A stretch of 64,000 nt of DNA from Opisthorchis felineus (Eukaryota > Platyhelminthes > Trematoda > Opisthorchiida > Opisthorchiidae). Below the pieces are notes generated by a model. The model searched no databases. It was not told the origin of the DNA and saw nothing but the letters and a program-made list of their open reading frames with translations. This document shows, one piece after another, positions 3,341-62,659 of this stretch. The stretch is taken from assembly GCA_004794785.1 (NCBI GenBank), contig SJOL01006475.1, positions 696,881 to 760,880 on the forward strand. Reading direction: 5' to 3'. Within the stretch, counting starts at the first letter, position 1; the number at the start of each line of letters is the position of its first letter. Made by a program: the position numbers and the translations under genes.

Positions 3341-3359
3341 AAAGTGTAGTGCACCTTGT

Positions 3360-3500: not shown

Positions 3501-3509
3501 AGATTTCGA

Positions 3510-8470: not shown

Positions 8471-8474
8471 AGTT

Positions 8475-18826: not shown

Positions 18827-18840
18827 ACACGGTACCGTGT
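18827..18840. repeat. Perfect 14-bp palindrome
   Basis: ACACGGTACCGTGT, centred on GGTACC, inside the PPC-gene intron. No larger inverted repeat surrounds it. It may be chance. Confidence 0.8.
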
Positions 18841-23525: not shown

Positions 23526-23539
23526 TCTTGATTTACCCT

Positions 23540-23725: not shown

Positions 23726-24057
23726 GTTCAACAGAATGTGGGGACAGTGTTAAAATCATGTACCCAACACTTGATAAACACACTCACTTCTCAGTTTCAA
23801 TAACTCCGGACAACCAAATTTCCAGAGCCTTCAAACATCTATGAAGAATGACGTCTGAAGGTGAAGTATGTGTGGCTATCATCTATGCAAGCACGGTGGT
23901 TGTTGAAACTGATTTGGAAATCCCAAATGGAGGGCATCTTCAGAACTTCGGTTTCAAAACTAGCGTTATTCAAGCCAAACAAAACACCTTTCAATATAAT
24001 CCACAACATAGAAAATTAGGGAATTTAGTAAGTCAATGCACCGAAATGAGAGCTCAC

Positions 24058-24477
24058 TTGCAAATTGGCTAAACGTATATGAGCTTTTGTAAGACTGCCG
24101 CAACACGTAATGATGAATGCTCCAGTCAGATGATGGCTCAGTATGTAGTGAGACAGGCAGCTGCGAACCTCTTGTCCTGGAGCAAGCCGTAAAATATGAA
24201 CACCGAAGCCCTCACCGGCAGAATGAATTGAAGAGACATCGCAACCCGGAATTTCTGCTGGTGCGTGAGTGGAATGTGGACCAGAGAGACGCGTGGACCA
24301 AAACGGTGAGAGGGATGGTGCGGGCTGCTCAATAGTACGAGGGCTGTCATCCTTGCGTTGATCGGATGAGCTACACTCAGAAGCAGTATTATATGGGTGC
24401 TCCATCAAAGACGGAACTGGAGAAGGCGTCCTAAACTGTTCTTGGATGGTTGGTGAATCGACGGGCGTGCATACACT
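24058..24477 (-). CDS. Internal exon: N-terminal half of a PPC (DUF296) domain (exon C)
   Basis: The exon is 420 nt (140 codons), phase 0 at both ends. The acceptor is a pyrimidine-rich tract ending TTTACAG at 24478; the donor is CAA|GTGAGC. Residues 1 to about 88 are Ser/Pro-rich. From about residue 90 (GFGVHILRLAPGQEV) it matches the first half of the PPC/DUF296 domain: strand, conserved RLxPGQE turn, helix, then AFIITCCGSLTKAHIRLAN. PPC domains occur in prokaryotic proteins and in plant AT-hook (AHL) nuclear proteins, where they mediate trimerisation and nuclear function. The second half lies in the next exon at 17864-17496. The leading 17 codons of the open frame (24528-24478) look like a signal peptide but are the intron's pyrimidine tract. 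Phase, strand and Ser/Pro composition all allow direct joining to exon B 4.8 kb upstream; this link is inferred. Confidence 0.85.
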
Positions 24478-26509: not shown

Positions 26510-26700
26510 TCCCCGTGTACACGCCAATGCATGTCGTCGATAAAATCTCTGAAAAGACCTCATGATTTCCGAAAGGATACCGCTCCATCTTAAGCATCCT
26601 AAGCGTTGTTATTCGTGGACTTCGATAAAATATTTTCATATGAAAGCGTGTACCGATGGATTTGGCCGAAATCAGACAACTCCAACAATTTGTCTCTAGT
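26510..26700 (+). mobile_element. Probable LINE reverse transcriptase remnant, N-terminal palm region
   Basis: Plus-strand frames contain HDFRKDTAPS followed, after two stops, by LLFVDFDKIFSYESVYR, resembling the LINE RT segment (I/L)FxDFxKAFDSVxR with the first catalytic Asp. It could be the 5' part of the same insertion as 27870-28860, separated by about 1.2 kb of unrelated sequence. It is short, so this is tentative. Confidence 0.42.
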
Positions 26701-27869
26701 AAGTTGCTCTCCATTATCAACCACCGGAAAATGTGCCGTAGCTCCTCCCAATCAAGAGAATTCACCATTCTCTAGCCACGGTCGCTTCGCCAGACCCTTT
26801 ACATTGATACTTTCTGACTGGCCATCTCACGGCATCCAACAGAGGGTAACCTATATATCCCCCGGCTGAGAAGTCATCTCCAAATAAAGACCAGTTTACA
26901 AACCTCGTGCGCCGGGTTTTCTTGCATCTATATGCTAGTTATGTATCAAGCCCACCAGTTTGAAGTTAAGTGTGTCTCACGGGCACGTGTGGGACCTAAA
27001 TATGGTTTCCCTCTGCATGTCATTTTTGAGCTTTTCCCTTCTGAAGAAAGCTGGGAATGGTATTTTTCGAACGAGTTCTTAGGGGTAAATTTTAAGGCGG
27101 GGAATTGTAAGTGCACCCAAAGCTACGTTTAAAAAATTTGTCCGTTTAGTGTAAACTAACAAAAATCACGATTCAAACGATATGCTAATGTTCTCTACAT
27201 GCAAAATCCTGCTTCATTTTACGACTTCCAGAATTTTAAAATGAGCTATCGCTTGACGAGATCCGTTGGTTTGGGCACCCACAAAATAAAGCAGCTCCTT
27301 TGAGTTGGCAGTTTAAACACTGATTTTTTCTCCAGCTGAGGACACTACCTTAGGATCGATCAAAAGTGGCCTTCTCTGGGAGAGACACTAGCATTGAAAC
27401 TTGAACCTTCTAGTGGAAGTTCAAGATAGGACTTGGGTCACGATGGTGACTCAAGTTTATATGCGTATCCGCGTGTTTCTGCAAGTTTCAGGATTCGGGG
27501 ATCCATAAACCAGCTTATAGCGTGTTGCTATGCCTTTCGTTCTTCGTTGAGATGTCGTCGGGCAAAATAACCAGATGAGCTCCTAGTGGCGTTGGTAAAT
27601 TTTTGGTAACATTTTGTTTTACATCGACTAGATAGTTCAGACTAATCCTCGAATGTGAGTGTGTTCCAATAAACTGAGGACAATCAAATACTTTACCTTT
27701 ATTCAACCAGGGTACCAGAAATGCCCATTACAGCCACAGTGGTAAATGTCTTACTCCAGCTGTGACGAGTCTACTGGTCCAGACGGCACTAAAGCCCATG
27801 AACTGTCACATGACCCTCAAGCTCGACAGCAGCAAGCAAGGTTCCGACCATCTTCAAATTACATCAAGT

Positions 27870-28860
27870 GTTTGAGCCGCGTCATGTATGCTGTCGACCA
27901 GCAGCGGCAATTTTCGCTCACCTCAACAGAGCCTACTACTCCGTGGATTGATCGGTCTCCACATATCCGAATGTTCCATTGAAACTAGTTGGATCTGTCA
28001 GGAATGTCCCCTCTCCTTACCTTTGTTCAAAATTTTCGGCAGTACTATGAAGTGCACTCTCCAAAGAACAGTGAACCTGGGTACCAGAATCACATATGGA
28101 GAGAGAGAGAGAGTAGTGAGCCTGTATTATACAGATGACACTAATCTGTTAGTTGACAATCATGCGACCACTAGAATTGCTCTAAATGAAATATCGGAAG
28201 TTGTCTGTACTTCGGCATGAGGTTCGTGGCTTCAAACTGCATCTTGTTTCAATATACCCCAGTATCGTGTATCATTTTGGGACTTCTGAATAAGGGGCTT
28301 GCATTTGGTTAAACAGCGTGTTTAGCAGATACGTGAGCCGTGATTCTACTGCGATAGACGTAGTCCGTGTACATCGTGCAGTAGGCACATGCCAGATCGT
28401 GTCATCTTTAAGGTCAAAAAAGAATCTCATTGAGGCTCGCACAAAAAGATCGTGAAAGCAGTCTTAAATTATGGTCATAGGGCCTGGCTTCTCTCATATG
28501 GGCCATCTTCAAAGATTTACTCATTAGGATCCTCTTATTCTATAACATATTCGTAAATCGGTACTAGGTAATGAATTGGATTCGAGCGAACATCAGAAAA
28601 ATCTTGCCCGTCTGGGATGTTTGGCTCACGTACTACTTATATGCCGAAGGAGGTGAGATTTCTAGTACAAGTACAAGTTCATGGGGTACGGGCCACGACG
28701 TGACAGTGCGAAATTGAGATGATCACTGCCAGGTTGAGTGCCATGGGACCTGCACTATTTCCTGGGTACTGTCCGTGTGATTCGACCTGTGCGTAGTTGG
28801 GGACCATAGAAAACACATTCCAGTGGCAAGCTTGCTGTCATTCCCTAGCCGAATTACCTA
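27870..28860 (+). mobile_element. Degenerate LINE (non-LTR) reverse transcriptase, C-terminal part to near the 3' end
   Basis: Frameshifted remnant. Recognisable in order: a QECPLS segment (equivalent of the RT QGCPLSP motif) near 28000-28030; YTDD at 28128-28139 replacing the catalytic YADD, followed by LLVDNHATTRIALNEIS; a decayed stretch; then, near 28600-28855, weak matches to the conserved C-terminal tail of flatworm LINE proteins, including VASLLSFPSRIT. Stops and frame changes make it non-functional. Clade is probably CR1- or RTE-like; I cannot decide without a search. It lies antisense within an inferred intron of the zinc finger-PPC gene. Confidence 0.72.
28099..28113 (+). repeat. 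Short (GA)n microsatellite inside the LINE remnant
   Basis: Fifteen bases of GA repeat just 5' of the YTDD motif. It probably arose after the LINE died and contributes to its frame disruption. Confidence 0.85.
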
Positions 28861-29280
28861 GTTAACGTTTTTTGCACTGAGCTTGTGTTCGGGTTCACAG
28901 GGGATTCTAGGTCAGTCCTACTCATAGTATCATACTTGAACTTGATCCTCAAATGTACTAATTCCTGCGGTTCTAAATGATGCAGGCACCTTTTTCGTTA
29001 CATTTTCCCCCAGGGATATAATGCATCTTACCATTAATCCCTACCACCCATTTCTAATAATCTTTGCATGAAACGTCTTCTTTGGTTATGCGGCGACTTA
29101 GCACCTGCCTCATCTATGGGTGTATTACTTTCTCTGATAACGATGAGGACGAGATATCTTTCCTCCATAATTGTTTCATTATGAGGATCTTCATATAATC
29201 AGTTAAAGGTCTGTAAAAGACATGTTTCAATGTGATAAAAGGAAGTTCTGTGTATCCAAATCAGAACAAAATATGCCTAC

Positions 29281-30603
29281 CTTATTTACTGAAGTTGAAA
29301 CACTGCGATCTTCACCATTTTGTCTGTGAATTGTCGGTTCGCCACCGAAGTTCATGGCTAGGCCGTTATTTCCGTATGGACGACGCCTGGAATCCTTGTC
29401 TCTGGCAGCGCAACTCTTAGCGGCCTGTGGAGGGGAGCAGTCAGTTCTGGCATCCGGCGGTGAGGAGTGCGACTTTTGACCGGATAGGTCACTGCAGAAT
29501 TTGGCGTTCGAATCTCCTAGTGAAGCCGACAAACAGGGGCTACGTTGATAAGGGGGACACAATATGGGTGGGGTTCGGCTACTCAGAATCCCCGGTATAT
29601 CACAAGTAGCGGGTGTAAGGGAACAGTTCACAATAGATGTACTGCGGCTGACCGTCAAGGAACCTCCTCCAGAATTTGGTAATGCGTCACATGGGCTCAT
29701 GCGTCCATTTGACGGTTTTTCTTTGTCATGGTAAGCCCGCGGTATGTTTCCAGATTCTGACCGACAAGTATGTGACATATGTTGTAACGGAGAAGGGACA
29801 TAATTGTTTTTATGAGCCACACTGTTATGGTCCTTGTTCTCCCAGCTGCAAACTAGGCAGGTGAGTCGTTCATGTAGTGAATTTACTGAAGATTTCGGGG
29901 AACATATTCCATCTGTATGTCTCGCCATGAAATTATCTTTCCTTGAATTGGGGTTGTGGTTGGATGACTGCTCTGGTGGCATTGGATGCAAAAACGAGGA
30001 ATGGAATGCTTTTCTAATATCGCTGGCGATGTTTGTTGTGTCAGGATCAAAAAACTGAAACGTTGTTGGCTTGGGTATGTGTGAAAACACCTCCCTTGGT
30101 TTCCAGTCCCAGATCATAGGGGCCGCGGAAACTCCCAATAGCCGATTATGGTCACTTTTGGGAGAAGGCAAGTTTGGAAAATTGCTTGCTAGTTTTGAGG
30201 CTGATTCAGCTACGGCTGCAGTAAAGATCGGCGGCAAATTCTGAAATGCAGAAGGTCGGTTGGCATTGTAAGGGGTTGCGGATAGCACATGTGGGTTGTT
30301 GTTGTTGTTGGATACTTGAGGTGAATATGCCGGAGTAGGTGTTCGACATCCCGGACCGTTGAAGGCTGTGCCTGTTTGTTTATGACTTTGTTTGGTGAGA
30401 ATATCACTACCATCAGTTGTGTTACGTGGTCCTGCGTTTGGTATTGCCGCTGCCATTGCAGCGGCCCAAGATGCCATCATCATGGGTGTTAAATCAGCAG
30501 ACCATTGAGGCATCTGAAAATATGCGTCAGAGGAAATCATCGGCATGAGAAAATCTTGTTGATGGTATATGTGTGAACTAGGGCATTTTCCAGATGGGAG
30601 GCC
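29281..30603 (-). CDS. Internal exon: Ser/Pro/Asn-rich linker (exon B of zinc finger-PPC gene)
   Basis: The exon is 1323 nt (441 codons), phase 0 at both ends. The acceptor is the pyrimidine-rich tract ending GGGCGAG|GGC at 30603; the donor is AAG|GTAGGC at 29280. The acceptor ends in a less common GAG, so its exact position is less certain than the others. No known fold is visible. The N-terminal part has a Met/Ala helix-like segment (MMMASWAAAMAAAIPN) after a Trp-containing stretch, then an Asn run coded by a GTT repeat near 30296-30312, then a long Ser/Pro/His-rich disordered region with scattered Cys. Near the C-terminus a basic patch (KDSRRRPYG) resembles an AT-hook core but lacks the RGRP glycine. 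It joins exon A in phase 0 across a 3.2 kb intron, and the composition matches exon A, so both almost certainly belong to one transcript. It probably links the zinc finger to a downstream domain. Confidence 0.82.
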
Positions 30604-33600
30604 CTCGCCCGAAGACAATACAAAGGTGTGTGTGAAAATATGTGATACAACGTCCCTTTAAAGTGGATCATCAGTTAGATGCGAAAACTGCAGAAACGGC
30701 ATTAACTGCGGAGACCAGGATGTGGCAAACGCTGCGTGCAAAGTAACATGTGACTCAAGCGATCTTTTTAGCTTCAAAGCATTCATCATTTAGAAGGAGG
30801 AAACACACTTAAGTCTCTTTTGCCTTGCTAGAAGTCCCCGTCTAACTGCAACGCCTGAGTCTCTTTAAATCTGGTTGAAATAAGTGAAAAAATATGCGTA
30901 GCTTCGGTTCGACCTCGTACTTTCCCAGGAAACTTATGGGTAATTAGTCCTAAGTAATCAATGCCAGTGTTTGAATTTGCTCAGGCTCAGGTAACGTTCA
31001 TCCACGTGTACAATCCGTAATCAGCCATCATTCCTCTAACACAAAAACTGGTACTCACTGATCACAGTTCATGTTTAGCCTTTAATCTGACTGAAACGTA
31101 GTAGTGAACATGCCTCAACACATGGGTTGTATGTTCTCCATTTACCAATAACATTGATCATCTGTCCAGTTCGCTCTCTTAAGTTTTTCGTGTTACGTTC
31201 ACTTAACCGAACTTGACTCAAATCTGAAAATGTGGTCTATACGGTAATGAGTTCAGAATTCAACATAGTTTTATTTTCCTACATACTAGGGTTTACGACA
31301 CACTTAAGAAAGAATTTAATGTTTCTAAGAGCATTTCTCATGCGTCATTCTGGGACGTTGTGTTATATCTGGTTGTATTTCTACGGTGCGTCTGGAACTT
31401 ACTACCTGCCCCGCTGTGTAGTTTGACTCTCGCAAAAACGGCAGTGATTTTTTTCACCAATGCGTATTGGCAGTGTTATCCGGCATATTGAGTCTACCCC
31501 TACAGGCTTGTTTATAGAACTTGTGAGTTCTGTAGCCTTTAGACTACCAAAAGTAGATCGTTTTACACAGCCGTTATTCCCTGATTATTCGCTCTTGAAA
31601 GCATCTCGCAGTCTCTCAAAATAGTACTCACGGGGTGGAGGTATCAGGCGCATGAATTTCGCGAGGTGAGAGAAAAACTCGCTAAACATATCTCTGCCAC
31701 AGATAGATGATTTCAGACAGTTGTAGGCCTACAGAATAGATCATTGTTCGATCAACTCAGTAGTCTATTTTTCGTACTGTTCTATATATTGGGACCCATA
31801 TCCACTGCAATTGTTTCATGCAGTTGCTATATTATGCAAATCACATCATTGTTAGCCGGATCAACTTGGTTTTGTACCACGTTGCATCATAAGGTCAAAA
31901 ATTATTGTGGCTTTCCAAGCAGATGCACAACTTGTGCACAGAAGGAGGTAGTTATCTACAAACTGACTCAATGTGGTCCTTGAAATCAGTATATTGACTG
32001 CCCTTTTTGCGGATTAGTCCATGGGATTTCATAAAGCAGCTTATCTTTGCAGTTACAGAAGTGCTGTCTACCAGTAATTATTCATCTGTGTCGTAGTGAC
32101 CCAAAAATAGGTACGAGATGGCTCTACGAGAAATTTTTTGGTAAGGTGCCAATCTTTCTGACTGACATTATTGGTTCGATCACAAAGAGTCCATTGTGAA
32201 ACTAACTCTGTGAAGCTCTGTATGATTACTGTTCAAAAAATCAGCCTCGCGTGATCAGAACTGAAGCCGGTTGGCGAATCAATTTGACGGGCTCTGTTGA
32301 GTTCCGAGGGTAAAGTTTAACAATGCTGTTCAGCATTCAACTATGAAATGGAGGCGGGAAAATTGAGTTACAGAGGAGAAAACAGTCGTAAGTGAAGAAA
32401 AGAAACATGTCATTTTCGTTTTCTTATCGTTCCTGGTTAGTGCTGTACAACGAGATGTATCGGAATCGATCACTCAGTTACTGAAAGTCGGATGGGAAAC
32501 AAAGACGGCTGCGTCATAAACAGTGCATTTTACTGTTATCCGATTAGTATACAGAGGGATTTCCGCTGTTTCTTAAAAAAAGAATGTCTAAAGAACACTT
32601 CCGATGTTACGACCGACGGAATACTATGGGTAGATCTCACAGCGCCTGGGCAACTTAGTAGAAAATCATCATCAATACTAACGATCTTGAATAGTTGGAG
32701 TTATGAAGTCTTATAGAAGCGGCTTTCTTGTTTTATCGGCCTTGTAGATTTTAGAATAGGGTGCTTCTTGCTTTGGGCAAACAACCCCTCTTATAACACG
32801 GAAACAAACATTGAAATCTGATGTAAAAAATATTCGGAAGTTTGCTTCCTGGCCTACGCTACATGCTGTCCGGTGGAATCTTACACTGACCCAGAGCAAT
32901 ATCCTTATACGCGTGCCTCGGATCGCGCAAATGTGGGTTTATAGTAAAAAATTTACTCAAAAGTATTTTTACAGCTATCCCCATGGCTTCTTATTTTATT
33001 CACATGGAACTGCGAACAATCTGTTCGTCCAGAGATTTGATGCGTTCGCTGTCATATATTGTCTTGGAGTGCTACCAGGTGGGTTCCTTTCTGATTCACC
33101 AAATGCTGTGCAACAACTTACTAAATAACTTACTCGTTTCTGCTTACCGGTGATGAAGTTTGTAGTAATTTTCTTAGCAATACCAATCTCACCCAATATC
33201 AGATAGACTCACCATGCTGAACTGTCCACTTCTACCAGGACCTACCCCCAAACTCAGTATACTGCAGTTAATTTGGACATACTGTTCCATTGCTGTGTTC
33301 TCCAAGCCCCTTCACAGAGAATATTGACTGACCATGCCTTTGGTTAAGAATGTTTCCCAGTGGGGAGAAATATCGGTGAGCAAGACCGTCAATTTTGTAG
33401 TCAGCAAGACCAGTGACTCCTGTTATACCTTCCTCTTGTGAATCTTAATGGACATCTGCTACAGTTTTTCGTCCTTTTCCCCTCCAAAGCTGCGTAGAAA
33501 TGTGTTTGCACTGCAGTCTCATTTAATCCCTTTCTCGCCTTTATATTCAGATACATGGCTAAAAGCTGCTGTGGGATAATGAGTCTGAACCCAGGGCTTC

Positions 33601-33775
33601 TAATAAGATAAGCTATACATGACGATGGATTGTTGCTGTCATGTTTTCAGGGTTCTCACAATTTGTCCTCAACTCTGTGTAAATTCGTCCAGCCTGTCTC
33701 GACCTTGTTTCACACACAATAGTTTCTTTAAGCATGGCAGTATCTGTATGGACCAAACAGTAAAACAAAACTCAC
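30604..33775 (-). other. Intron between exons A and B (3172 nt)
   Basis: Donor GTGAGT at 33775; acceptor tract ends at 30604 with GAG. The sequence between is AT-rich with only short overlapping open frames on both strands. No repeat or coding element is recognised. Confidence 0.7.
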
Positions 33776-35056
33776 CTGGTTCATCAGTTCGGCGGGAGAA
33801 TGTGGGGGCCACAGATTCTGAGGGAAACGCAAGAGGGATTGTGCTGTCGCGGCTGCAGCCAGCGCAAAAGCTGTGTGATTGTCTGAGATCGATGCCAACT
33901 TTGGCAAGTTGATTGGTTCAATCCCGATCCCCGTCTGGCAGCTTATACCGGGTAGAAGGGGATTAGATGGCAGTGTGGAACTAACTGATTGGTCATTATC
34001 AGTCTTATTGCATCTTGAACTCGGTAGATTACCCGAAGCTACTAGATTCGGGCTAGTCACATGCTGCTTGGGAGCATCTGAACGGATTCCAGGTTTGGTG
34101 TGATTCAGCCCGATAGAAGGTAGAAGCTTAAATGAAGATGCTGGCTCCGTGTGGTGAAATGCTGTCTGTACAGAGCCATAAAAGCTTTTGAGACGGGTAA
34201 CGGTTCCCATTTCCTCGCTGTCACAGTGCTTCGTTCTGGATGCTGCAAGCTGGTCCAATATTTGACTGAATGGCGAAGCGCACGATCTCAATTTTCGCTC
34301 GCTTTCCAAACTTTCAACTGGCCGAAACACTGAGTTAGTCGACGGCAGAGCAGAAGGGAATGGGGGTGGATTACCGCCTATTTTGTCAAAAAAGGAAGGT
34401 GCGACATAATGGTTTGGGGAGGCAACCTCACCAAGATCACTTGGAAACGAAGAGGGGGCACGTAATGAAGCTCGGTTATATTTGAGTGGAGAATCATTCG
34501 GCGTACTCCTCAAAATCGGAGACGCCGGTAGACCTTGTTCATTGCTAAAAATTGGTGAAACGTTTTTGAATGGTGAGATCATGGAACGGGTGGTAGGTGT
34601 TGGGTTCCCTACTCGGCCTAGTGTTGTTATGCTCATTTGCTCAAAGTTGTTTTTCTTGTGTCGTATTTCTGGAAACACAGGCTTTTCCTCCGACAACTTG
34701 AGTGAGGGACTCAAGTGGTTTGGATGCCATATCGGAAGCTCATTTGATCGGGCACTCGTCAACCTTGAAACTTGGTTTTCAAGACCACCCAAAGCTATGC
34801 TTTCCAAAGGCTTGTTCATTAGTAGTGCTTTTGTCATCTCCGGAACCTTACGGCTCACGCGGGTCGTGGATGTGTTGTTTGTCTGGGCCGCATCCATGGG
34901 ACCCATCAAGTTGTGTTGGCGAACCAACTGTTCAAACAGATTTTGCCTGTCCGTCTCAGGCATGCCAAGCAACTCCACGTGACGCCGAACTGTGTGACGC
35001 TTGATTGTATCCAATTTCCGTTGCGTCATTACCTTGTGACACACCAAACACATGAC
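33776..35056 (-). CDS. Internal exon: atypical C2H2 zinc finger plus Ser/Pro-rich region (exon A of zinc finger-PPC gene)
   Basis: The exon is 1281 nt (427 codons), entered and left in phase 0. The acceptor has a strong pyrimidine tract ending in CCGCAG just above 35056. The donor CAG|GTGAGT follows residue Gln427. The first residues hold one zinc-finger-like unit with C3-x2-C6-x14-H21-x4-H26 spacing; its helix is very basic (QRKLDTIKRHTVRRH). This resembles the single C2H2/BED-type fingers of transcriptional regulators and transposase-derived proteins, so DNA or chromatin binding is likely but not shown. Residues from about 55 onward are Ser/Pro/Asn-rich and look disordered, ending in an Ala-rich stretch before the donor. 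ATG at 35053 is only the second codon; because the acceptor is good, I infer that the true start lies in an upstream exon not found here. Reading past the donor gives 14 intron codons and a stop. The coding call is secure; the exact family is not. Confidence 0.85.
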
Positions 35057-38000
35057 CTGCGGTTGGAGAAAAACAAAGGCCGGGTTAGAATAGAATGTGG
35101 AATATGGTCAACACGTTTAATACTTCTAGGTCCTGTATATCCCTTGGCTAGTGGTTCTGTTGTATCGTCTAATGAGCATGAACTCTGATCGCTATCTACA
35201 AACCCAACCATAAGAGGAAGTTCGAAGTGGGTCCACCTTCTACTGTAACCCATGACTGCCTTGACTAAGTATGTAGTTAATAGCCTAACTATGCCTGGTA
35301 CCCCCAACCTTCATAAGCCGGTGGCCCGTTAAGACAGATGTCTTCGTTTATAGGCTATCATGAAAAAGCCACTAAGTTCATTTGAGGCACACGCTGAAGG
35401 TGTTCAGCAACTCACCATTATATCCAGCGCCCACAATTCCATTTAACTTCCTTGGATTAGGATTTATGTGCAACAAAGTCCCAAGTGGAAATATTGTCGG
35501 GCTAAACCCATAAGGTATTGGAAACAGGTTTGTACACTCACTCATTCACAACTGTACATAGCTGCTTTTAATAAACGCAGCCAAAGGCATATTCTGGCCA
35601 GAAGTTCTTAGAGTTTCTTTCAGACCTCTGGTGCAAGTTAGCTCGGGGCACACCGAAGATTTAAAGGCAGTTTACGCTGACGTTCAGCTCAATATACTCA
35701 TCAAATACACTCAAATTTGGCAGCCATTCGATGAATTTCCAGGCTCTCCGAGGGAGAAATTTAGGTAACCAGAAATCCGAAAGCATTTATCGGACAGCCT
35801 TCTAATCTATGTTTTTGGGGACGCAAAATGACATTCTTACCATTCGTACTGTGTCGATTTTATCGGTTACCAACACAAAAGACGTCTACCCTTGATTACA
35901 GTAGGTTACAACTGATCAGTTTGAATGCGGTTCTAATATTAATATTCCAGACTCGCTTCATGAGACTTTCGTAACCAACCGTCTACAGACATTTGCCCTA
36001 CTTTCGTCCAAGTACACAGTATCACTCAAAGTCTTAACTATTACAGGAATGGTGCTTCACTCTGTAAGAAAGTCATCTGGTTATCAGGCATCAAACTCCT
36101 CTCAGTCGCATTTTCCGAAATGACAGTATGAATCAGATTTTAGTATTCTATTAATTCAGAAGTGGAAGTCCATATTTTACCGAAGTGGATCTTAGCATTC
36201 TCTAAGTTTACTCGCGGATTCTATGAAAAATCGAAATACCTTGATTCGTGCAATGAAACGTTTTTCTTCTGATTCCAGATTTTAGCCAGAAGTTTCTATT
36301 AAATTTCCAAAAGTGCACACGAACAACATCGTAAATAAACCAAAATGTTTAGGTGGGTGGCTCAGTGAAGAAAGCTTGGTTTCGGGAGGATATGATAACT
36401 CTGAAGTCGACAACATCTTCGTAATCTGTTCACCTCGTAGTCTGTAAGTGTTCACTGTCACGGATAATCTTCAAGAAGTACTTGGTCTTTGTCATCAGAT
36501 CAACCAATTTTGGCATTAATGAATCTTCCTATCAGTAACCAACTGAGTCCTCGACCTCCTGACTCACGTCGCTCAGCTATCACTCTGATGATCACCTGTG
36601 TTCGTTTTAGCTCCTCAGGCTCCTTGTCGGTTAGAGCTATCAATTGCGTCTACGTCTATCAATTGTGTCTACGTTACGTAAGGAGTGGAAGAGAGAGCGT
36701 AGCTGTACAGAGGTGTGCACAGCTAGGGGTTTGACAACCTTTCCGTTTTATTCTAACCCTTGGTGACTTTAGGATTCCGATTTAGGCTCCAATCGAACCA
36801 GGGTAAACGATATCTCACAGTTTGTCGAGATGAAAATGTTCCTAATACAAGTCAAAATGGGGAAACTAACCCGGTGGAAGTTTGTTGATTATATAGCTAC
36901 TTTCAAACTGGAATATAATTTACAAATAAGCTGGTCAAACAGCTAACAAACAGGCGCATTTAGCCTTATGGTAGCACAAAAGCTGTGTGCTCATAATTCT
37001 GTTAGTTACATTTTTACCCCTCCAGCCTGCAAGTCGCATTTCACATTGTACACTAAGAAACACTAAAAATAACTGTTCATAGATGTTCTGGATTTTTTCC
37101 TCGGACCAATACCACTGAAAGGGTAGAATTCATGGGGCTAGTAATGTCTGCAAATGATCTCTCCAGAGATATATGCCCCCACCATTTTCTGGGAGAGAAT
37201 TCCTTGAGAGATTATCCCACAGAAATCATCATGTTTGTTTGGTCTTTTTTAACATCACTCGATGGTAGCGGACCGTCTAGAGTTAGGTTTACCAGATGCT
37301 TTTCTAAATGGAACATGCGGCTGTATAATTTTTGGCACATTCAGTTGAAGAATATTATGAACGAGAGAATCACTCAAATTTCATTCCCTTTTTCCACCAA
37401 CTTCATTCCCAATTACGTTTTTGAGTTCGGTCCAGTTCTTATCACAGTAGCCATTTTCGCTCTTTTTAGTCCTGTTGATAATCACTGGAGGTGGGAGCTC
37501 AATGCAACCCTGAGGAGATTCAAACTTTTAGCAATCCATTTTACACCAGGACACCGCAACAATCGGTTGGCAGTTTGAGTAATTCAAACTTAGACCATGA
37601 ATATACGCACCATCCTTCAAGCATAGTTCGCTTTGAGCGATTTGGTGTTGGCCGACTGCTAGCTGTAATGTTTGGTTTACAACCCCCGAGTGATAGGTGA
37701 AATGTGGACTACTTATGCTTCCTAATAAGTAGGAAACGACCGTAGAGGGCTGCTTTTGTTTTCAGTACAGGCTGAGTTCAGTAGTGAGGCGGAATTCTAA
37801 TTGGAGCATCAACGCCCTACTCCCTACGAAGTGCAAGTAATTTATTTGGTAGGAGAGTAAATCCCACGGTCCTTCCATGGTTCGTCTAGCAGGAAGACCG
37901 CCAGTCCAAGATTCAGTCACCACCGGTTCGATTGGTGTGAACTGTATGACAGAGTGATGGCACTATTATACCCTGTCTAAATGCGCATTAGCCGTACCGC

Positions 38001-38950
38001 TGACATGCCACTTGTGACGGAACTGTGTGCTGTCCAACCTAGAACCCTCCTGAGACTCACACTACTAAATGTTCCGAGGTAGGGGGATGAAGTAGTAGAA
38101 GGATGAAACAGTCATATAAACTATCCGGCTTTTTGGGACAGGTACGCTTCATTTCAGTATAAAATGTTAAGTAAAATTACTGCAGTCGTCCACTTCATGA
38201 AATTACTGCACCGGTGAATAATTCAATCATCTCACGGCAACATTTGTTCGAAAATGCATCATCGTGATTTGAAAGTCAGTTGCTTATCTCTGTAAGTTTG
38301 GTGTGTCCACTTAAAATTTAATCTGCCACATTCGCTATTAAAAATGTAACAGAAATAACAGCACTACTGGTGTGCGTAGTTGAGTGTCCATATTCACTCT
38401 ATCGAAGTGCAGTCGCCTTTCTCTCCTCCGACTCTCCACTTTTACTAAGATCTTACTAAAATTGCAAGCCTTATCTACCCGCAGCTGCCTTGCAATACCT
38501 GTATTTCTTTCATTTCACTGACATGCCATCAAAAACGAAGACAAGTATTTTTCTGGTTTCATTGCTCACAAAATTTGCCCAGATGAGTCTGATGATGATC
38601 GGTAGGATTGTCCCAAGGATCGACTGCACACCAGTCAGTTTAATCGCATGGCTGATAATAATGATAATTATCTAAAGGGACGGAGATAGTGTAAACCGCT
38701 TTTAACATGTATTCACCTCTGACTAAAAACAACAAAAGTCTTTGTTGAAAAAACCACACATGTTAGTTCTGGCCTGTGAGCGTACACAAACATGTAAATA
38801 GATATATCGTATTTCTATTCAGTCGTCAATAAGTGGCCTGTGACAGAGGTGTGAAGCCTGTTGAATCGTGATTACTGCTCACCTGGTGGTCTATCTTCGC
38901 AGTTCGTCATCGCAATACACTAATGCGACAATTCGTTAGCAAACTAAACT
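35057..38950. other. Upstream intron/5' region of the zinc-finger gene; no exon recognised
   Basis: The acceptor at 35056 implies an upstream exon, but none could be picked out here on the minus strand. The plus-strand frame at 37132-37578 has no domain pattern and is treated as chance. Confidence 0.5.
36637..36674 (+). repeat. Tandem duplication of a 19-bp unit
   Basis: Two adjacent copies of CTATCAATTGCGTCTACGT, with a single C/T difference in the second. Function unknown. Confidence 0.85.
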
Positions 38951-38957
38951 CATATGA

Positions 38958-39187
38958 ACAAAATACACTCATTTGCAAACCAATTTAGCTTTGCGAGAGA
39001 CTCACCTGGAACCCAGATGAATCTCTCGTTTATGATGTCTTAAGCAACTGAATGTGCTGCGCCAGGCCGCCTCATGTTTCAGTTGGTACGATATTCGATA
39101 TATTGCGATATATGTATAGACGTAACACACTACTCATAAGGTTGCTGAAAATTCTTCGACAGCCCACGACCTGTTTCGCCCTTCTTA
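38958..39187 (-). repeat. Hammerhead-repeat copy, minus arm of the 39-kb pair, 5'-truncated in the ribozyme
   Basis: Read on the minus strand, it begins inside the hammerhead stem II loop (AAGAAGGGCGAAACAGGTC, near 39187), keeps GAAA, the GTC site and the stem I 3' strand GTGGGC, runs through AGTAGTGTGTTACG, then an A/T-rich spacer. It ends in the same TTTGCAAATGAGTGTATT block at 38961-38978. It lacks the CTGATGA core. About 65 nt of its ribozyme end is the reverse complement of 39349-39415. Confidence 0.8.
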
Positions 39188-39204
39188 AAGACATCAAAAA
39201 AGCA

Positions 39205-39417
39205 GATACTCAGCTGAGTTCCACGTGAGTCTCGCGCAAAACCAAATTGGTTTGCAAATGAGTGTATTCCCCTAATTCTTGCGACTTGGGTCCAGGTATA
39301 AAATAAGGTTGACGGAAACTCGGGGACTGCGCCTGCCTGATAAACCCCAAGAAGGGCGAAACCGGTCGTAAGCTGTCGGAGAGTTTTCAGCAAACTTATG
39401 AGTAGTGTGTTACGTCC
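39205..39417 (+). repeat. Hammerhead-repeat copy, plus arm of the 39-kb head-to-head pair
   Basis: Starts near the segment CAGCTGAGTTCCACGTGAG, passes through a shared block ending in TTTGCAAATGAGTGTATT (39251-39268), then about 60 nt to the hammerhead at 39331, and ends AGTAGTGTGTTACGTC at 39417. The same blocks recur at 23.6, 8.4 and 62.7 kb and, reversed, at 3.4, 9.75, 38.96 and 47.7 kb. Confidence 0.8.
39331..39373 (+). ncRNA. Type I hammerhead ribozyme, best preserved copy in the window
   Basis: In order: stem I 5' strand GCCTGC (39331-39336), catalytic core CTGATAA (39337-39343; consensus CTGATGA, one change), stem II ACCC/GGGC around loop CAAGAA (39344-39357, three of four pairs kept), GAAA (39358-39361), minimal stem III CCGG, cleavage triplet GTC (predicted cut after 39367), and stem I 3' strand GTAAGC (39368-39373). 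Stem I forms five of six pairs. Hammerheads self-cleave RNA by transesterification. The very short stem III is like those described in Sm-alpha and Penelope-like elements. The change in the core (G to A next to the invariant A) probably lowers or kills activity of this copy. Confidence 0.8.
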
Positions 39418-39419
39418 AA

Positions 39420-41780
39420 ACTCATTTCACTTACAATTCCAGAAGTGGGAAATACCAGGAAGGCTAAAAACCTCCATTTTTCAGCTCAATTTTCTTGGTG
39501 AAGAAGTTACGAGCTCGCGGAGTATGTTCAGTTTCCCTTATCCACTTCAACAAACAAGTGTTGAGGATAACAGTATGAGGGATTCAGAAATATCCTCAAA
39601 TGCCATCTGTCCTGTATTATATATCTGATGTTTCTAAACGTTCGTTTATGTGGAAGGTGGAATTGTTACAAGTACTAAGCGCCCCATAAATGGACGCGCT
39701 CACCGGCTGTAAGCAGAAACCACCCCCTCCAATTAACTGTTAGTATACTGCCAGATGATGTGTTAGTTCTAGTTAGCACTTTGTCTCTGCTATTTCACAC
39801 TTCACACTGTCTCACACTTGGCGATGTGAACCCTGTCATTTAGGTATTCTACCGCGCCGGTCGTGCTAAAAATCGAGCCACTACTCACGGCGCATTTCTG
39901 TGTCGGCCCACCTTTACGGCCTACAATCATGGTGTGCGCAATTGCGTAGGTCGCCCAAATCTTGATTAGCTGGTTGAAGATGCGTTTTCTCTGTGGCGAG
40001 ACTGCAGCATGTATGGGTGACATGTGACAAAGGAATGCACTATTCAGTGCATCTGATCTCCTGCTTGCTCGCTCACTCGCACTCTCATGCTTGCTGAGTT
40101 TGTCTGCACGTGTGTCTGCACATATTCGGTACCAAATAAGACAGCAAGGCGCAAGGCTGAATGACACATGTCTTACACAGCAATACTAACAGGCATATTA
40201 AACAGATTAGTGAGGTCCAGTTTGTGGACGATAAATGACTTGTCAGTTGTGCTTTTTCTACTGAATAAGGGATATTAGGCGCAGCAGTGAAAGTTGAGTG
40301 ACACACTTTTCGAAACGACACCAGATTTCACATCAAAATCATATCCCCTTTTTCCAAACAAACTCGGTAACTTGTATCCGAAAGCGTTGGAAGTTCGTGT
40401 GCCACTGGGCATGCTGCCGGAAATCTACATGCCGACTTTTAGCCCCTGAATATTCTCTGCAAATGGAGAGTTTTAGGACATACAACAAAAACATTGTGTG
40501 GCTATCATCAGAGATTGCAACATCGGTGTTGACACTACCCGTCACTGCCGCAAAACCATAAAGTTTGTTTGATTTTACCTAAAGCCTTAAAGTGAAAAGA
40601 AAGGAAAAGAGTGGATGAGAGAGGGACCTGTTGCTAGCCCTTCTCAGCAAACTTTGTTTGGACCACTGGTTGGCTGCTGTTTGGAAAAGTACTAATTTTC
40701 GTGTACTCGCAGGGAAACTTACTGAGACCCAAAACACCGAATTGTCACATATTCGCCTACCATATACCGTCTACGTACATTTCTAGATCAGTCCGGACAA
40801 CCGCACCTTGGCAATAGCTTGGACAGCAGTCTAGTCGTCTTCGGAGAGAAACCATTCTTCAAAAGCGTTTGCAACATGCGTTTTTCGCCAGCTTTTCTTG
40901 CTTGGAATTTGCTTCTAGTGAAGAAGTTACTACAACCTCCCAACGGAAGCCACAATTAACTTTCCTCAAAGAGGGTTCTGCAGTGAACGGAAGCCAAAAA
41001 CTGAGGTTTTGTGTAAAATTTAGGAGCGTATGATAGTACTGAAAGACTTGAGTTACGTGACGCCAAACAGCACACACAGCTGCTAAGGTACTACGATTCG
41101 GATCACCTGTCTCAAGTTCACAGACAAACGCACCGTTACTAGTGTTAAGCCTAACAACACAAAACTCGTTACAACACCACGCTGAACTTTCCTGCTTCAA
41201 GTGCCGCGCTTATTCATCATTCTGCTTAGCCAGAAAGTTCATTGAGCACCGTAATGATTTCAAACGGCTAAATATGGAATGCCAATTGAACCAACAAACG
41301 ATTCGCGATGAGTTCTCTATGGGCTGCCTTTCTGCAATGGCGAAGCGACGGTCTACTAAAGGCTATTTCCTGCATCAAACTATTGCACTAGAAATGTAAA
41401 GTACCTTGACCTAAGACGAAACACGATGCACAAATAGCGACTGTTTTGTCAGTTTTCTGTCACCAGCGGAAATTCACTTGAGATCACAATAGAAATTGTA
41501 TTAAGAAAGATTGAAAGATAAACGAAGTTTCTGCATAGGGTGTTTCGGGACACCAAATACATAGTGGCAAACCAAATATGAGGCGAACAGACCTGATTCG
41601 CCTCATTGAGCAACCTAGTGAAGACATTTTCGGGGAGCTCCTCTTCTGATTTTTATCCTTAATGGAAAGTACTAGCCATAATCTTGCAGAATGCTAAATG
41701 CTTTACTTGCACAACCGGCTAGAACTAAGCACCTGATCCCGAAAAAAATTTTAATTTTACTTGAAGCTCAAAAGTTGAGA
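39420..41780. other. No supported gene; unexplained GC-richer segment at about 39820-40170
   Basis: The minus strand is open for 121 codons across 39802-40167, with the stretch ATYAIAHTMIVGRKGGPTQK reading more protein-like than its neighbours. I know no family for it. It may be part of an unrecognised transposable element. Confidence 0.4.
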
Positions 41781-47689: not shown

Positions 47690-47775
47690 CAAACTGCCCA
47701 TAAGTTTCTGAAAACTCACCTACAGCTCATGACCAGCTACGTCCTTCTTGGGGCTCATTAGGTAGATACTATCCT
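47690..47775 (-). repeat. Hammerhead-repeat copy
   Basis: Minus-oriented fragment with the ribozyme at 47725-47767 and the tail TTTTCAGAAACTTATGGGC, which parallels TTTTCAGCAAACTTATGAG in the 39-kb copy. No further part of the unit is recognisable. Confidence 0.65.
47725..47767 (-). ncRNA. Degenerate hammerhead ribozyme copy
   Basis: On the minus strand: ATCTAC, core CTAATGA (one change, 47761-47755), stem II GCCC/GGAC with loop CAAGAA (one mismatch), GTAG in place of GAAA (47740-47737), CTGGTC with the cut at 47731/47730, then ATGAGC. The loop and stem II match the family closely. Confidence 0.65.
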
Positions 47776-47779
47776 CGAG

Positions 47780-50700
47780 TTTTCTTTTCCTTTCCTTTTC
47801 TTCGGATTACGTTTAGTAAAGATTCAATAAAAGTTCACATGTTTCATAGAGCACTGACAGCTCTGAACAGCTCAATCGGGGAGTTCTGTTTCGTCAAATA
47901 AACTGAACTGGACAAATTCAGTATAGTGATGGAGAGTATCCGAGTTACGGTAATGTAAAGGTTGAAGATAAATAACCTTCCTCCGATTCGAAATCAACCA
48001 TTGTAAAACATCCAAATACCCATTTGTAAAACCGAAGCAGTTTTTGTTGTTGGGTCTCGCAGTGATAAAGAATAATCTCAAATACACTACACTATTTTTT
48101 TCAATTTGTTATGCATGCTTATTGAACGGTGAATCTTTAGGTGACAGGAACAACGTTCATTCTTTTATAAGAGAACTCCTCTTCTATGCTAATTCAAATG
48201 CATCTAACAGTGAGAAATAAACCTTGTGCTTGGCCATTAGACCACTGAATTGGATATGTTTGAAGCGCTTTTTTTTACCTTTTAGTGGGAGACATGCAGC
48301 CATTTTCTTGAGGTAGAATGTAAGTATTATAACGCAGACCATCAAAGAGTGCCAAGGATAAATTATTTTACCTAGCTGATGGCAGCTTACCTGCCAATCC
48401 ACTTGGGAATACGTGTATATACAAGGCAACAAGCACTCAGCTAATCATTTTAACATTCTTGTGTAAAGTGACACCAGCTGCGGCAGCTATAGCAACAGTA
48501 AATATTAGTGATACTTACACTTCTACCAGCTAATGGATTTTCAATTCATTGGGCAAGAGCAGGTCAGCTGGATGTTTTTGGCGTTTTTCGCATCCGTTCC
48601 CATTCATCTGGGTGGTCATGATATGCCGGTTTCCATGACTCATATATTCAGCAGTATTGTTTGGCTCTGTCTGGTTCTATCCTCCAGTACACCCCTCCCA
48701 AACATCTATCTCAGTGGCTCCTAACTGTCTAGTCACCCAAAACCGACACTCCCAAATGTCGCATTGAAGTGTTTGTTTTTTGTCACATACTTCGCCGTAC
48801 CAGCCAGTTCGCCCGCCTATCACCTGTCCGACATTCTGCACAATAACTAGTCTTGTGGTCTGAGTGGTGGTATTGGCGGGTGACAAAAATGACGCCTAGA
48901 TGTCTGGGTACCTACTGCATGCATTGTGCACATTCCGCACATTAGTGAAAGTAGCTAGCTTTTTCAGCTTTGTGTAGATGTCGGGGTCGGCCGAATTGAG
49001 CTAAGCATAATCGAAGACTATGTGCACACCCGTCTCGCTGTGCGTGTGTTCATATCAATCTGATGACAGTCGTCCATCCGGTATATGAACGACGTCTTGA
49101 TCAAGGTCACTTGCGATGTCTGGCGAACCAGCAGTAAATGATATGCGGAGAGAAGGTCCAACTAATTTGCTGGTTGCCTCCGTTGAGCACCTCAGCGCAC
49201 ATTGTCCATAATACATCCACACTATTTACACGGAATATGATTCCAAGGGTGTCCGAAAGCCCGCTGTCGGGAAGGAAAGATTAGGGATCGATTCGCGTTA
49301 GAAATAGTCTCGTTTGTGGCTAAATTTTTCTAATCCGCTCTGTCAGTCATTCTGAGTAGGTGTTTTTCATTTGTAATCTTGAACAAAAATGAAAGATACT
49401 ATTAATTTTCTCTTGACCAGAAAGGTCAAGGAAGCTATAAAAGGACCTAATTATAATGCGTACGGCCTAAATAACCCACTACGAAACAGTTCCGATAGAG
49501 TTTATAAGAAGAGGTCATATTCGTTATTTCTGTTTGTCAATATCTCACCAAGTTTTTTTTATTCTACAGTCGGTTCCTTTCATGAAAACTTTGGACAATA
49601 CTGTCATTGTTCAGGAATATTTGTTAAGAGTAGTGTGCGTATTTAGTGAGCCAAGATGAGCTGAAAGGGGATAAGATGCTTGGAAAATGTAGGGTTTAAA
49701 GGGTCACATGTAGAATTGTAGGCCTGATTCACAAACTGTTCAGGTGATAAAATAGATCAGGAAAACGGATACTTCTCTGACCAGGAAACTTTTAAAGTCC
49801 AAACATGTATTTCGATTAAATTTATAGGTTAGAATGGGACAATAACAGAAGGGGTGGTATATTGCATAAGATACTATCAAGGTACTTTTTTTAGTTAATT
49901 CACTCCCAATGAGCTTGAGATAGTTTGATACGCAACATTACCACTTGAGAGAAGTGGGAAGACATTGTGCTGTATTATTGTTGGGTGCGAAGTTCCAATG
50001 ATCTGAGCAGAATCCAAGCACAAAATTAAGCGGTTTCATAAATTGCAACACCTGCGATTAGCATCTTAGGAAGGTTGGAATCTGGGAGGCTCCTCTGGAA
50101 CTTCTGCCTCTATTTTATTCCATATGTCTTCAGAATTTCCACAACACAGGATTTTGTGCCTTCGCTCTACAGGCGAATCATAATTACAGATTGTGTGATT
50201 TTCTTGATATCTATAACTGGACCATGTGCTGACCAGCCTTGAATTGAAGTACTCAGGTAAGAAAAGTTAAGTTTTCTTTAACTCAAGAAGATATCCACAG
50301 CTTATCAACTCTCGTGAGTTGTGACCTATTTGACCTCGAATGAGAAAAGCCAAATGTTCCAGTTCCATTCAAGATGGTTCTTTCTGATGTAGGATTTCGT
50401 GTTCCGTAAGGTGGTACATTTAATTTTTTTACGTTCACTATCCATGACCGGTTAATCTTGTTATCCGATCACCGCAACATACAATCGAACAAGCCCAAAA
50501 TTATGTATTCTCCCTTTCACTGAGTAAAAGATCAAATGGGACAACTGAAACTGAAACTGGTTGACTGCTCAAGGGAAGTTCCACATGATTTCACCAAAAG
50601 AACGAACACTAATAAACGGGCAACGAAGTAAGTAGAAAATTACTTGTCACTGGGACCAGTAAACGTGAACTCTGTCCACACACAGGCTAATTGATAACTG

Positions 50701-53620
50701 GGTAAATGCAAAAGTCTTCGGGTATTTTGAGGCGTCTTGCTCAATAGTCAGTCTGGACCTAACAAGTTAGAAGCAAAAGTGGCAGTCCGGCTAGATGGCT
50801 ACTTTTCACAAAAACAATTTATACATGTTTTGTGAACGAACGACGCTGAATAATGTTGCGCGAAGGTGAAAAAGTGTGGTCTACAAAGTAAATTTTTGGT
50901 TTGCCATCGCTTTCGAAGCTTTTACTCTGGCAATTCCTTCGCTGGTGCTGTCTTCCTCATTCACTTGACACCAGGCGAATTGAACCAAGTATTTGTGTAT
51001 GCGTCGAGAGTCACTACAGATGTGATATGTCTCTCAAGTTGCGGAGTAAAAACACGGTGTCCCAAATCTTGAAGAGAAGTTATCCTCTGATGGTCTTGCT
51101 GACGTTTTACCCTAAAACGACTTCATATATAATAGAATGCTAGCCATTGCACTACGAGCATCTGTGTTGCAACGCTGTTATGTGATGGCTGTTGTGTTCC
51201 ACACTGTAGGCTCCGATTTACGTGTTACTCCATAGAATTCCACAGTTAGATAATCGTCCTCTTTGTTCCAAGTGGTCGAGTGATCTTCCACTGTTCGTAG
51301 CGCAGTGGTGTATATACACGTGTTTGAGCGTGTGCCGTTGTGTGAAATTATGAGAAGAGAAAACGCCAGCTATCTGAATTCACGCAATACTAGATGACCA
51401 TTATAAGCGACATTTCTAACGATCCTAATCATCAGCTTTGATTCTGCAGTATCAGCACTATATGTGTACCAAGTGAGTCCCCTCCTTACTGAGTAAGCAG
51501 AAAAACCAAGCAGAGTGACCAGTTCGCAGTCCTATAAAATATAACAAAACCGGCAATATAATGCAGAATCGGAAATTACACGCTTGATGGCAGCTGTTTA
51601 TGTTTACTTACGTGAGGTATGTTGGTGACAGGAAGTCACTTATTGTTGCAGGGGTCTTACTGAAGTTTAGTTCATAACCTCTAATTACTACAGGTTTGAT
51701 AATGAAATCAAACCTGTTTGTTGCAGACTTCTGGTTATTGTCTGGGTTAGTGAGTACAGCTTGCCATTTAGCGTGCTCTTTCGAACAAAAGGCAAATAGG
51801 AAGGCAGTGTGTACAGGCGGTTGAAACTAGTGCCTTGTGTAATCCCCCAGCTATCGGCAGATATTTTTCATTCTGGAAGTTTATTTAAGACGTAACAAAA
51901 AATTAGTCATCGTCAGTTTTTTTAGTATCGAACCTCGAAGTTTGTTTCTTTAGGAGAGGAGAAAATGCTAGCAGACTTTTCTCGACGGCATGATGGGGAA
52001 TTTATAAGTTCATTGGGCACTAAACCTGAAAATTAAACTTGGTGTTTGTTGCGTTTCGAGATAATTTGGTAAGAAGGCAGATGCTCTTAAGGTGAAACAT
52101 GATAAGAGAAGGAGGTCGTGGAATTGTTCGTAATTGATCAAAGCAGACCCCACTTGAGTTTAATTTTAATAGACATCCTTCTAACTACCTAACTGGCAGC
52201 CTTCTATTTTGTAGCCATATCTATCCTTTATCGAAGATCTCATGGGTTTATTGCAAATCAAATGACACTAAACCACATTGTATTTCAAAATTGAGCCAAA
52301 ATGACCTATATAATAATAAGACATTATTGTAGTAGTACGAATCGTAGGGCGTTTACCATATCATTATTCAGAATGGCTGTTTACAGAAACGGGAAATTGT
52401 CGGTCTACGTAATCTGATGTACTAAACGGTCAGTTTTTGTACAATGTGCGTGCGTCTTCTCCCTCAGAAATAGCTTCCAAACAAACCGGATAGATTATCG
52501 CGCTTCATGATTAGCTAACTTATTATACTATTTATTTCGTACATGATCATGCACTCCATCACATTCAGGACTTCATGTCGCAAGTGAATTTTAGTCAGCC
52601 AACGGTCCGTCGAGGTTATCCGTATTTGAATTACGGATAACCTGGAGGCTCTTGTCTGCAACAAATGATACTCAAATTTTATGTGCGGGGGGACCATTCT
52701 AAATTGGGCCATTTGACTGGTGGTTAAAAGCGACCTCCCGTGAAACACTCTAAAAGGACGTACAGTATAGTTGGGTTTCTTGTCAGCAGAATGGAGAATT
52801 AGCTAACAGTTGTTCAGTGATTATTTTCGTCTCTACAGAAAATTTCCTTCGTTCAACTCCAAAAAACCATATTTTATGCAACCCAAGTAAAAATCTGTTC
52901 CCTGGCAGTCGAACATTTAACTTCTGCAAAATCTTGTCGACAAAATCAAAAGCTAAGGTGAAAGTGGGCTACCAATATTTCCAAGTGTGATTGCAGGCAG
53001 CTCTATATGCTTTCGAGGTCGGATAATTCCCGCCAGAAAACGGGCGAGTAAATATGGCATCTGGTGGAGACGATAATCTAGAATTATAGGTCTGAACTAT
53101 CTGTGACAGTTTTTAGATAGTGGTGGAACTCTGAATTTAAATGGAAATTTTATGTAAACTTAACAAGTTGGCTCTATCCTTGCATCATTTTCATACTGGT
53201 TAAAGAGAGTGGGTGGGATATTTTGGCTTGCAATGCAGCCGCTGAACACTGGACTTCACCTTTCAACGAGTCAACAGCTATCAACGATAAATCCCTGAAA
53301 ACCACAGTCACTTTTATTGTACGAACCTCCCTCTCGATATCCCTCTAGTCAGTAGATCCTCCTGAGCCCCGGGGCACCTTCCAGCTTTCTAAGTTGTCAA
53401 AAACTCCCGCTGATCACCCGATCTCTGTTCATGGTTAGAACCATAGCGTCGGTCAGAAAAGTTGTTTTCAATGCATACTGTCTATCAACAGCAAACTGAA
53501 GGAACGGTCAGTCTTCTCCGTCTTTCCACCCAACAGTGTACTGATGGTGTCACCTCTGTTGGTGACAATATATATATGGCAGTGAAACATCAGTGCTGAA
53601 CGCTGATGTCATAATGTCGA
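47780..53620. other. No supported gene or element
   Basis: AT-rich sequence with short, overlapping frames only; no repeats shared with the rest of the window were seen. Confidence 0.55.
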
Positions 53621-53623
53621 TGG

Positions 53624-53707
<84 letters not shown>
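53624..53707 (+). repeat. Perfect (TGA)28 trinucleotide microsatellite
   Basis: 84 uninterrupted bases of TGA/ATG/GAT repeat. Open frames across it encode pure Met or, on the other strand, His runs and are artefacts of the repeat. Its purity against otherwise diverged surroundings suggests recent expansion and likely length polymorphism. Confidence 0.97.
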
Positions 53708-62655: not shown

Positions 62656-62659
62656 AAAA

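Follow-up and report, generated by a model that had tools for sequence, protein, structure and literature searches.

Sm-alpha of Schistosoma mansoni is a trematode repeat that carries a type I hammerhead ribozyme and has Pol III A and B boxes upstream. W-elements, for which a very short stem III has been reported, likewise are trematode repeats with a type I hammerhead (PMC8490949). Metazoan non-LTR retrozymes, such as the 330-bp family of axolotl and newt (HHR_Amex1), consist of tandem units of 150-450 bp with a GC content below 50% and a type I hammerhead, lack a coding frame and are expressed as small circular RNAs. The ribozymes of axolotl and newt have a single-pair stem III with a palindromic tetraloop, are predicted to act as dimers and reportedly need the dimer arrangement for efficient cleavage (PMC7229834). 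Retrozyme-like repeats have already been stated for platyhelminths (PMC7229834). Hammerheads also occur in Penelope-like elements. The purified Penelope protein of the anole cuts and extends both strands of its target and starts at two internal RNA sites; hammerhead cleavage is unnecessary for insertion, and the reading frame of the element starts in hammerhead stem II (PMC11167929). In rotifers, the repeats of Penelope elements lie head to head, are accompanied by duplications of 8-10 bp and may also have a tail of 31 bp (PMC3846280).

The window analysed here, a 64-kb stretch of the genome of the liver fluke Opisthorchis felineus, holds one repeat family represented by five ribozyme loci and a sixth, truncated copy. 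All five loci have the same parts in the same order, namely stem I, a CTGATGA-like core, a stem II hairpin, GAAA, a CCGG-like stretch, the cleavage site and stem I again, as the initial annotation of the window had described. The loci listed there are real and homologous; strand was not mentioned, and two of them (3405-3450 and 47725-47767) are on the minus strand. Profiles trained on the other copies recovered each of the five at E ≤ 1e-9, with values of 3e-21 for the copy at 3405, 1e-9 for 8389, 2e-10 for 23650, 7e-14 for 47725 and 2e-27 for 39331, the last being partly dependent since the training set included the truncated copy from the same insertion. The best unrelated match in the window in these runs had E = 0.25. 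The sixth ribozyme copy (39119-39186, minus strand), found by the same profile model, is 5'-truncated and cut off in stem II. The window copies are old: none of the five retains an intact core, compared with 4 of 20 bystander copies, among which the five are themselves counted. The majority-base sequence of the five loci, put forward in the initial annotation as a canonical type I hammerhead, is letter-for-letter equal to intact genomic copies and so represents the intact form.

Positions within the repeat are given on a ruler of one 307-bp unit, in which numbering starts (unit 1) with the base that directly follows the predicted cleavage site. The ribozyme at 39331-39373 (plus strand) has a damaged core in which G8 reads A, and its predicted cleavage site lies after 39367. 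It is contained in the right arm of a head-to-head composite (39191-39414, plus strand, unit 131 to 47, 86% identity to the 307-bp array unit), the left arm of which (38961-39186, minus strand, unit 289 to 208, 91% identity) includes the truncated ribozyme. The composite, 38961-39414, is flanked by an 8-bp candidate target-site duplication, AAACTCAT, with its left copy at 38946-38953 and its right copy at 39418-39425. A second composite (23379-23718) has a right arm at 23552-23718 (plus strand, 67% identity to the unit) with the ribozyme 23650-23689, which has one core change, and a left arm at 23379-23513 (minus strand, unit 66 to 213, 64%) without a ribozyme; its flanks have no common word longer than 4. 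The ribozyme 3405-3450, with two core changes, lies in a copy at 3357-3559 (minus strand, unit 161 to 55, 77%), and 47725-47767, with three, in a copy at 47693-47782 (minus strand, unit 256 to 39, 77%). The most diverged ribozyme copy (8361-8473, plus strand, ribozyme 8389-8432) has one core change and was matched by the left-out profile, and blastn found no match between it and the unit. The X part of the unit occurs without a ribozyme at 9726-9826 (minus strand, unit 112-210, 85%) and 62658-62744 (plus strand, unit 129-215, 82%). A weak match (66%) to the link-plus-X part at 10346-10494 did not reappear when the 307-bp ruler was used as query with a threshold of E 1e-4.

The window also contains a multi-exon gene at 17496-35107 (minus strand) with a Spin-doc zinc finger and a PCC domain, which partially matches Opisthorchis viverrini T265_12748, and the composite 23379-23718 sits between two exons that match this protein. 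Four stretches of the window match O. viverrini protein with 74-97% identity. A (GAT)n microsatellite of 29.7 copies is located at 53619-53707.

Searching the 630,098,494-base assembly with the pattern CTGATGANCCCCAAGAAGGNCGAAACCGGTC at up to three mismatches gave 12,091 ribozyme cores (5970 forward and 6121 reverse), and 3,452 cores (1716 + 1736) were exact, with stem positions free and no mismatch. Reversed-pattern controls gave 0 matches in both searches, and the suggestion that the ribozyme belongs to a dispersed repeat family is borne out. Tandem pairs number 585 (273 + 312; control 0), with periods mostly of 293, 307 and 309 bp among the places listed. In one array all eight full 307-bp units are identical, one of the eight being the reference, and the one unit measured has a GC content of 46.6%. 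The surroundings of the arrays have no RT-like frame in common; the 293-bp units are traversed by antisense frames 125-131 aa long. A frame with RT and GIY-YIG was not seen in the units or at a constant flank position, some frames having been judged by eye. Three candidates for a larger element were set aside. The idea that the 293-bp arrays derive from a Penelope terminal repeat was rejected on three array loci (L069-L071), which have only the repeat in common; a longer element around the unit, on masked flanks with scattered repeats common to at most 6 loci and none at a constant place; and a Penelope frame in the fetched loci, on frames of at least 130 aa, among which none was evident by eye. 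A Gypsy-type-integrase-like frame, also recognised by eye, flanks a ribozyme copy at one locus (L008, 2395-3042, minus strand).

Judged by its sequence, the family is a non-autonomous retrozyme and neither Sm-alpha nor a Penelope element. The initial annotation had placed it with the same kind of retroelement as these two; a dispersed retroelement family it is, and the closer kinship fails on a B box with 3 mismatches at best and on the lack of an RT-like frame. Open-licence PMC papers yielded no report of a hammerhead ribozyme in Opisthorchis, although an earlier report elsewhere is possible, and for Clonorchis sinensis such papers yielded a single one, on S. japonicum egg RNA.

The invariant type I core (C3 U4 G5 A6, G8 A9, G12 A13 A14, the A15.1-U16.1 pair and H17) is present in the family, as the exact genomic matches attest. 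In an alignment of 56 copies, selected from the search matches and the window, 86.2% of stem cells pair compared with 34-46% when the partners are slid; core and stem pairing are both conserved genome-wide. Changes on both sides are seen in 17 of 30 pairs, a number reached in 0 of 500 shuffles. Slid pairings also give double changes in 12-18 of the 30 pairs, and since relatedness can beat shuffles without any structure, more weight is due to the share of cells that pair. All four stem II pairs have double-sided changes compared with only one of the six stem I pairs beside the core. Divergence in the 20 bystander copies is lower at the 11 positions of the core (22/205, 10.7%) than in the rest (218/1051, 20.7%; P 6e-4). 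The stems of these copies have not changed more slowly than the surroundings (stem I 42/235; stem II 39/149 against 218/1051 for the rest), and CCGG has 14/76.

Stem I is long and has internal loops. Stem III is ACCGGU, and the minimal CCGG stem III proposed initially has to be abandoned because no hairpin stem is possible: a single A-U pair closes a self-complementary CCGG tetraloop. In folding predictions the ACCGGU of one unit in a tandem RNA pairs with that of the next, which would complete two ribozymes, and a lone unit with its one-pair stem III is predicted to cut poorly. For a 406-nt tandem RNA from one array (L053), the unconstrained minimum of -147.6 kcal/mol is a double hammerhead, compared with -127.5 kcal/mol when two single hammerheads are forced. 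The inter-unit stem III has a pair probability of 0.75-0.89 in this RNA and behaves likewise in those of L070 and L071. The circular fold of the unit is also strong (z -4.9 against 100 shuffles).

The Rfam models that match the unit ribozyme best are RF00163 (Hammerhead_1) and RF02275 (HH9), and one copy (L001) matches the Hammerhead_1 consensus, CUGA-GAGUCCCAAAUAGGACGAAAC, at all positions but one. The Rfam search suggested in the initial annotation came back negative for the window, with 0 matches at the gathering score and HH9 matches only below it (E 0.27 at 3393-3454 and E 4.1 at 39322-39386). To take a lack of Rfam matches as refuting the ribozyme would mislead, because intact array units themselves score only 36 bits against the 52 of HH9; the null result is therefore taken as a property of the models. 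The array subfamily (L053, L070 and L010) falls below the gathering scores, probably because the models do not allow for so short a stem III. A genome search with RF00163 gave at least 21 matches among 74 scored, 16 of them over the cut-off and at least one (L002) from a second family described below, and no match in 14 control genomes. Matches to MIR, SNORD98, lincRNA, RNAIII and isrG were each below their own cut-offs and were discarded.

What is new about this family is the footprint of its insertions, which are often composites of two arms joined head to head. Segments at most 60 bases apart were merged into one insertion, 12 loci that repeat others (L009, L048 and L050-L059) were dropped, and the copy at 8389 is outside the counts. 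Insertions were excluded if they lay within 30 bases of a locus end, which gives a set of 87, or within 40 bases, which gives a set of 85. The arms are in minus-then-plus order in 34 of the 87 insertions and in plus-then-minus order in none; 34 composites are present among the 85. The loci came from ribozyme-based queries, so the end statistics do not describe a random sample. Moreover, the zones named here (A, B, 124-141 and 227-240) were set post hoc from the ends, and P values for them are descriptive and not tests. Outer sense-3' ends fall at site A (unit 30-72) in 63 cases, at site B (195-230) in 46 and elsewhere in 10, so that A and B hold 109 of 119 (descriptive P 3e-52 against a uniform distribution); outer 5' ends lie inside these zones in only 8 of 51 cases. 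The composites comprise 16 B/A, 10 A/B, 2 A/A and 2 B/B, with 4 having an unclassed end. One A end is thus combined with one B end in 26 of the 30 classed composites, and among the two-segment composites (n = 28) 22 of the 24 classed are mixed (descriptive P 2e-5).

Flank words of at least 8 bp are held in common by 10 of 34 composites (8-14 bp), compared with 0.6% of mismatched pairs, and by 4 of 51 non-composites, compared with 0.5%; no common flank word of 7 or more was found in 20 of the 34 composites. Composites inside one target duplication are likely to be single events. If so, both outer ends are places where target DNA primed the copying of RNA. The inner junctions are distinct in all 28 two-segment composites. 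They overlap by at least 2 nt in 13 (P 1e-4 under a simple model) and by 0 or 1 in 2, and unaligned bases separate the arms in 13. The 5' ends cluster at unit 124-141, where 14 of 51 outer 5' ends (descriptive P 9e-7) and 9 of 24 B arms (descriptive P 5e-6) end, and a second cluster at 227-240 holds 10 of 51. They are not enriched at the ribozyme cut, within 6 bases of which 2 of 51 lie where 1.8 are expected, one of the two being a probable mapping artefact. Some arms exceed one unit in length.

A similar arrangement is found in a second hammerhead family, consisting of L002 (ribozyme 1501-1545) and L072-L086, which is unrelated to the 307-bp unit and of which the window yielded no copy. It is a separate, tRNA-like SINE that resembles Sm-alpha in having A and B boxes followed by a hammerhead, with the palindromic stem III ACTCGAGT. 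The boxes have 0 (A) and 1-2 (B) mismatches in the four copies scanned, and a first look gave 2,762 candidates, of which 40 were scored. Minus-then-plus pairs occur at 5 of 15 loci, with arms about 17 to 150 bases apart, some of these gaps being beyond the 60-base joining rule used for the first family. Measured on the reference piece (L074, itself omitted), the 3' ends fall into two ranges, 317-342 and 360-376, with L072 (296) as an exception. That two unrelated hammerhead families have the head-to-head habit fits one enzyme acting on both.

The search for a mobilising enzyme covered Penelope-type RT and GIY-YIG. The genome has at least 6 matches to the GIY-YIG profile (150 of 553 candidates scored), and the one that was fetched (L087) has an endonuclease frame (GIY-YIG, 29 bits) adjoining an RT-like frame. 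Pfam gave no match for this RT-like frame alone. Among 57 relatives of the frame, PF26215 was found in 54, PF00078 in 11 and PF01541 in one, and the nearest include proteins of Clonorchis and Opisthorchis. From RT and GIY-YIG taken together, we read proteins of this type as Penelope proteins. The Penelope fragment of L087 lies about 350 bp from a unit fragment and was dismissed as a chance neighbour, since units are common and this unit piece itself consists of minus-then-plus arms. The Penelope RT piece has at least 151 matches (150 of 3,386 candidates scored), among them open frames of 858-874 aa; some frames are far longer and may run through N stretches. Paired Penelope pieces at most 3.4 kb apart on 11 contigs picked by eye are minus-then-plus in 6 cases, plus-then-minus in one and same-strand in 4. 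A tandem period of about 2,781 bp is seen at two contigs. At L089 (775-996), two Penelope arms meet head to head in a long palindrome, whereas most ribozyme composites have asymmetric junctions.

The 5' regions at two Penelope loci (L088, and L089 with L090) contain CTGATGA-TGTCWCC...GGTGAY-GAAACGTT, which by our own parse is a putative minimal hammerhead with stem III ACGU, overlapping the start of the ORF in stem II. Rfam does not list this minimal hammerhead. The Penelope pieces L088-L090 (3,203 bases) have no match to the unit, and with no sequence in common the link between unit and Penelope rests on the footprint and on co-occurrence in one genome. A suitable type of enzyme is therefore present, and we infer from this analysis that a Penelope enzyme moves the unit.

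Compared with the systems described above, the unit is closest in its parts to the metazoan retrozymes, with which it has in common the type I hammerhead, tandem units of this size and GC content, a single-pair stem III with a palindromic tetraloop and predicted action as a dimer (PMC7229834). Target duplications of metazoan retrozymes, where present, exceed 4 bp, and those of the unit reach 14 bp. Unlike the retrozymes of axolotl and newt, it resides in an invertebrate, a fluke. It has two priming sites and A/B composites, of which the available excerpts of PMC7229834 contain no description, and its insertion ends do not suggest the circular template of the published retrozyme cycle. The unit is like Sm-alpha and W-elements in being a trematode repeat with a type I hammerhead, and differs from Sm-alpha in having no B box, its best A box having 1 mismatch; the Sm-alpha-like family of this genome is the second family. 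With Penelope-like elements (PMC11167929, PMC3846280) the unit has in common a hammerhead, a pair of internal start sites, a head-to-head arrangement of repeats and duplicated flanks of about 8-14 bp, but it has no RT/GIY-YIG frame, and the putative hammerhead of the two Penelope loci is separate and unlike that of the unit. The head-to-head repeats and the duplications in part of the copies are read as the mark of the mobilising enzyme and not of Penelope membership.

The explanation we prefer, with a probability of roughly 0.7, is that the loci in the window have decayed from a repeat, about 307 bp long, whose intact copies encode a type I hammerhead predicted to cut as a dimer and which is likely inserted by a Penelope-like RT. 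Tandem transcripts would cut themselves as a double hammerhead. A Penelope-like RT would bind a single RNA in which each unit offers two start sites, A at about 47-60 and B at about 207-216. One cut strand of the target would be extended by copying that starts at A, and the opposite cut strand by copying that starts at B. The two cDNAs would then join, often through short homology, to leave head-to-head arms inside a target duplication. The usual template may be a linear transcript that starts near unit 129 and is uncut by the ribozyme. A more specific version, in which two RTs, one starting at A and its partner at B, would act on one RNA in a single head-to-head insertion by a Penelope-like dimer, the unit would have evolved both A and B, and the hammerhead would trim multimers instead of making templates, is tentative, and we consider it somewhat less probable than its negation.

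The standard retrozyme cycle, published for metazoan retrozymes (PMC7229834), would instead have hammerhead-cut transcripts ligated to 307-nt circles that serve as the RT template. The tandem units, the strong circular fold and the arms that exceed one unit agree with such circles. The clustering of 5' ends at 124-141 is as linear run-off would give, the ribozyme cut has no excess of ends, and cleavage was also dispensable in the anole Penelope assay (PMC11167929), all of which makes a circular template rather unlikely, with a chance of about one in four being conceded to it. The short overlaps at the inner junctions, the flank duplications and the head-to-head order are also what a LINE enzyme would give if the composites were the product of ordinary twin priming. 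Twin priming is known for LINE-1, in which one end is at the poly(A) and one at an internal position. Here the outer ends on both sides cluster internally, at A and B, and most classed composites combine the two sites; we regard mobilisation by a LINE as improbable.

For the Penelope elements of rotifers it has been proposed that head-to-head arms arise when the cDNA primes itself with antisense RNA or DNA as template (PMC3846280). The same could apply here, and the palindromic junction at L089 is of the form this would give. Self-priming predicts matching inner ends, and only 2 of 28 composites are near-symmetric, with inner ends at most 20 nt apart, so that it is very unlikely to explain the family. 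Least credible of all is a satellite spread purely by DNA-level recombination with the ribozyme as a passenger. The array of identical units is what such a satellite might look like, but the dispersed copies have flank duplications and clustered ends, the flanks are not alike at any constant place around the loci, and the core changes more slowly than the rest.

The family bears on two questions left open in the cited papers: which enzyme copies animal retrozymes, for which Penelope elements and Terminons have been named likely candidates (PMC7761336), and how the head-to-head repeats of Penelope elements originate, the later insertion steps having been left for validation in the anole study (PMC11167929). 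Both questions become countable in this family, since a single genome supplies copies in the thousands and numerous insertions of a unit that has two start sites. The family also illustrates that curated ribozyme models can overlook one with thousands of exact copies. The head-to-head composites, which make up about four of ten sampled insertions and mostly start at the two sites, suggest that a Penelope-type enzyme likely pastes the repeat from both DNA strands at once.
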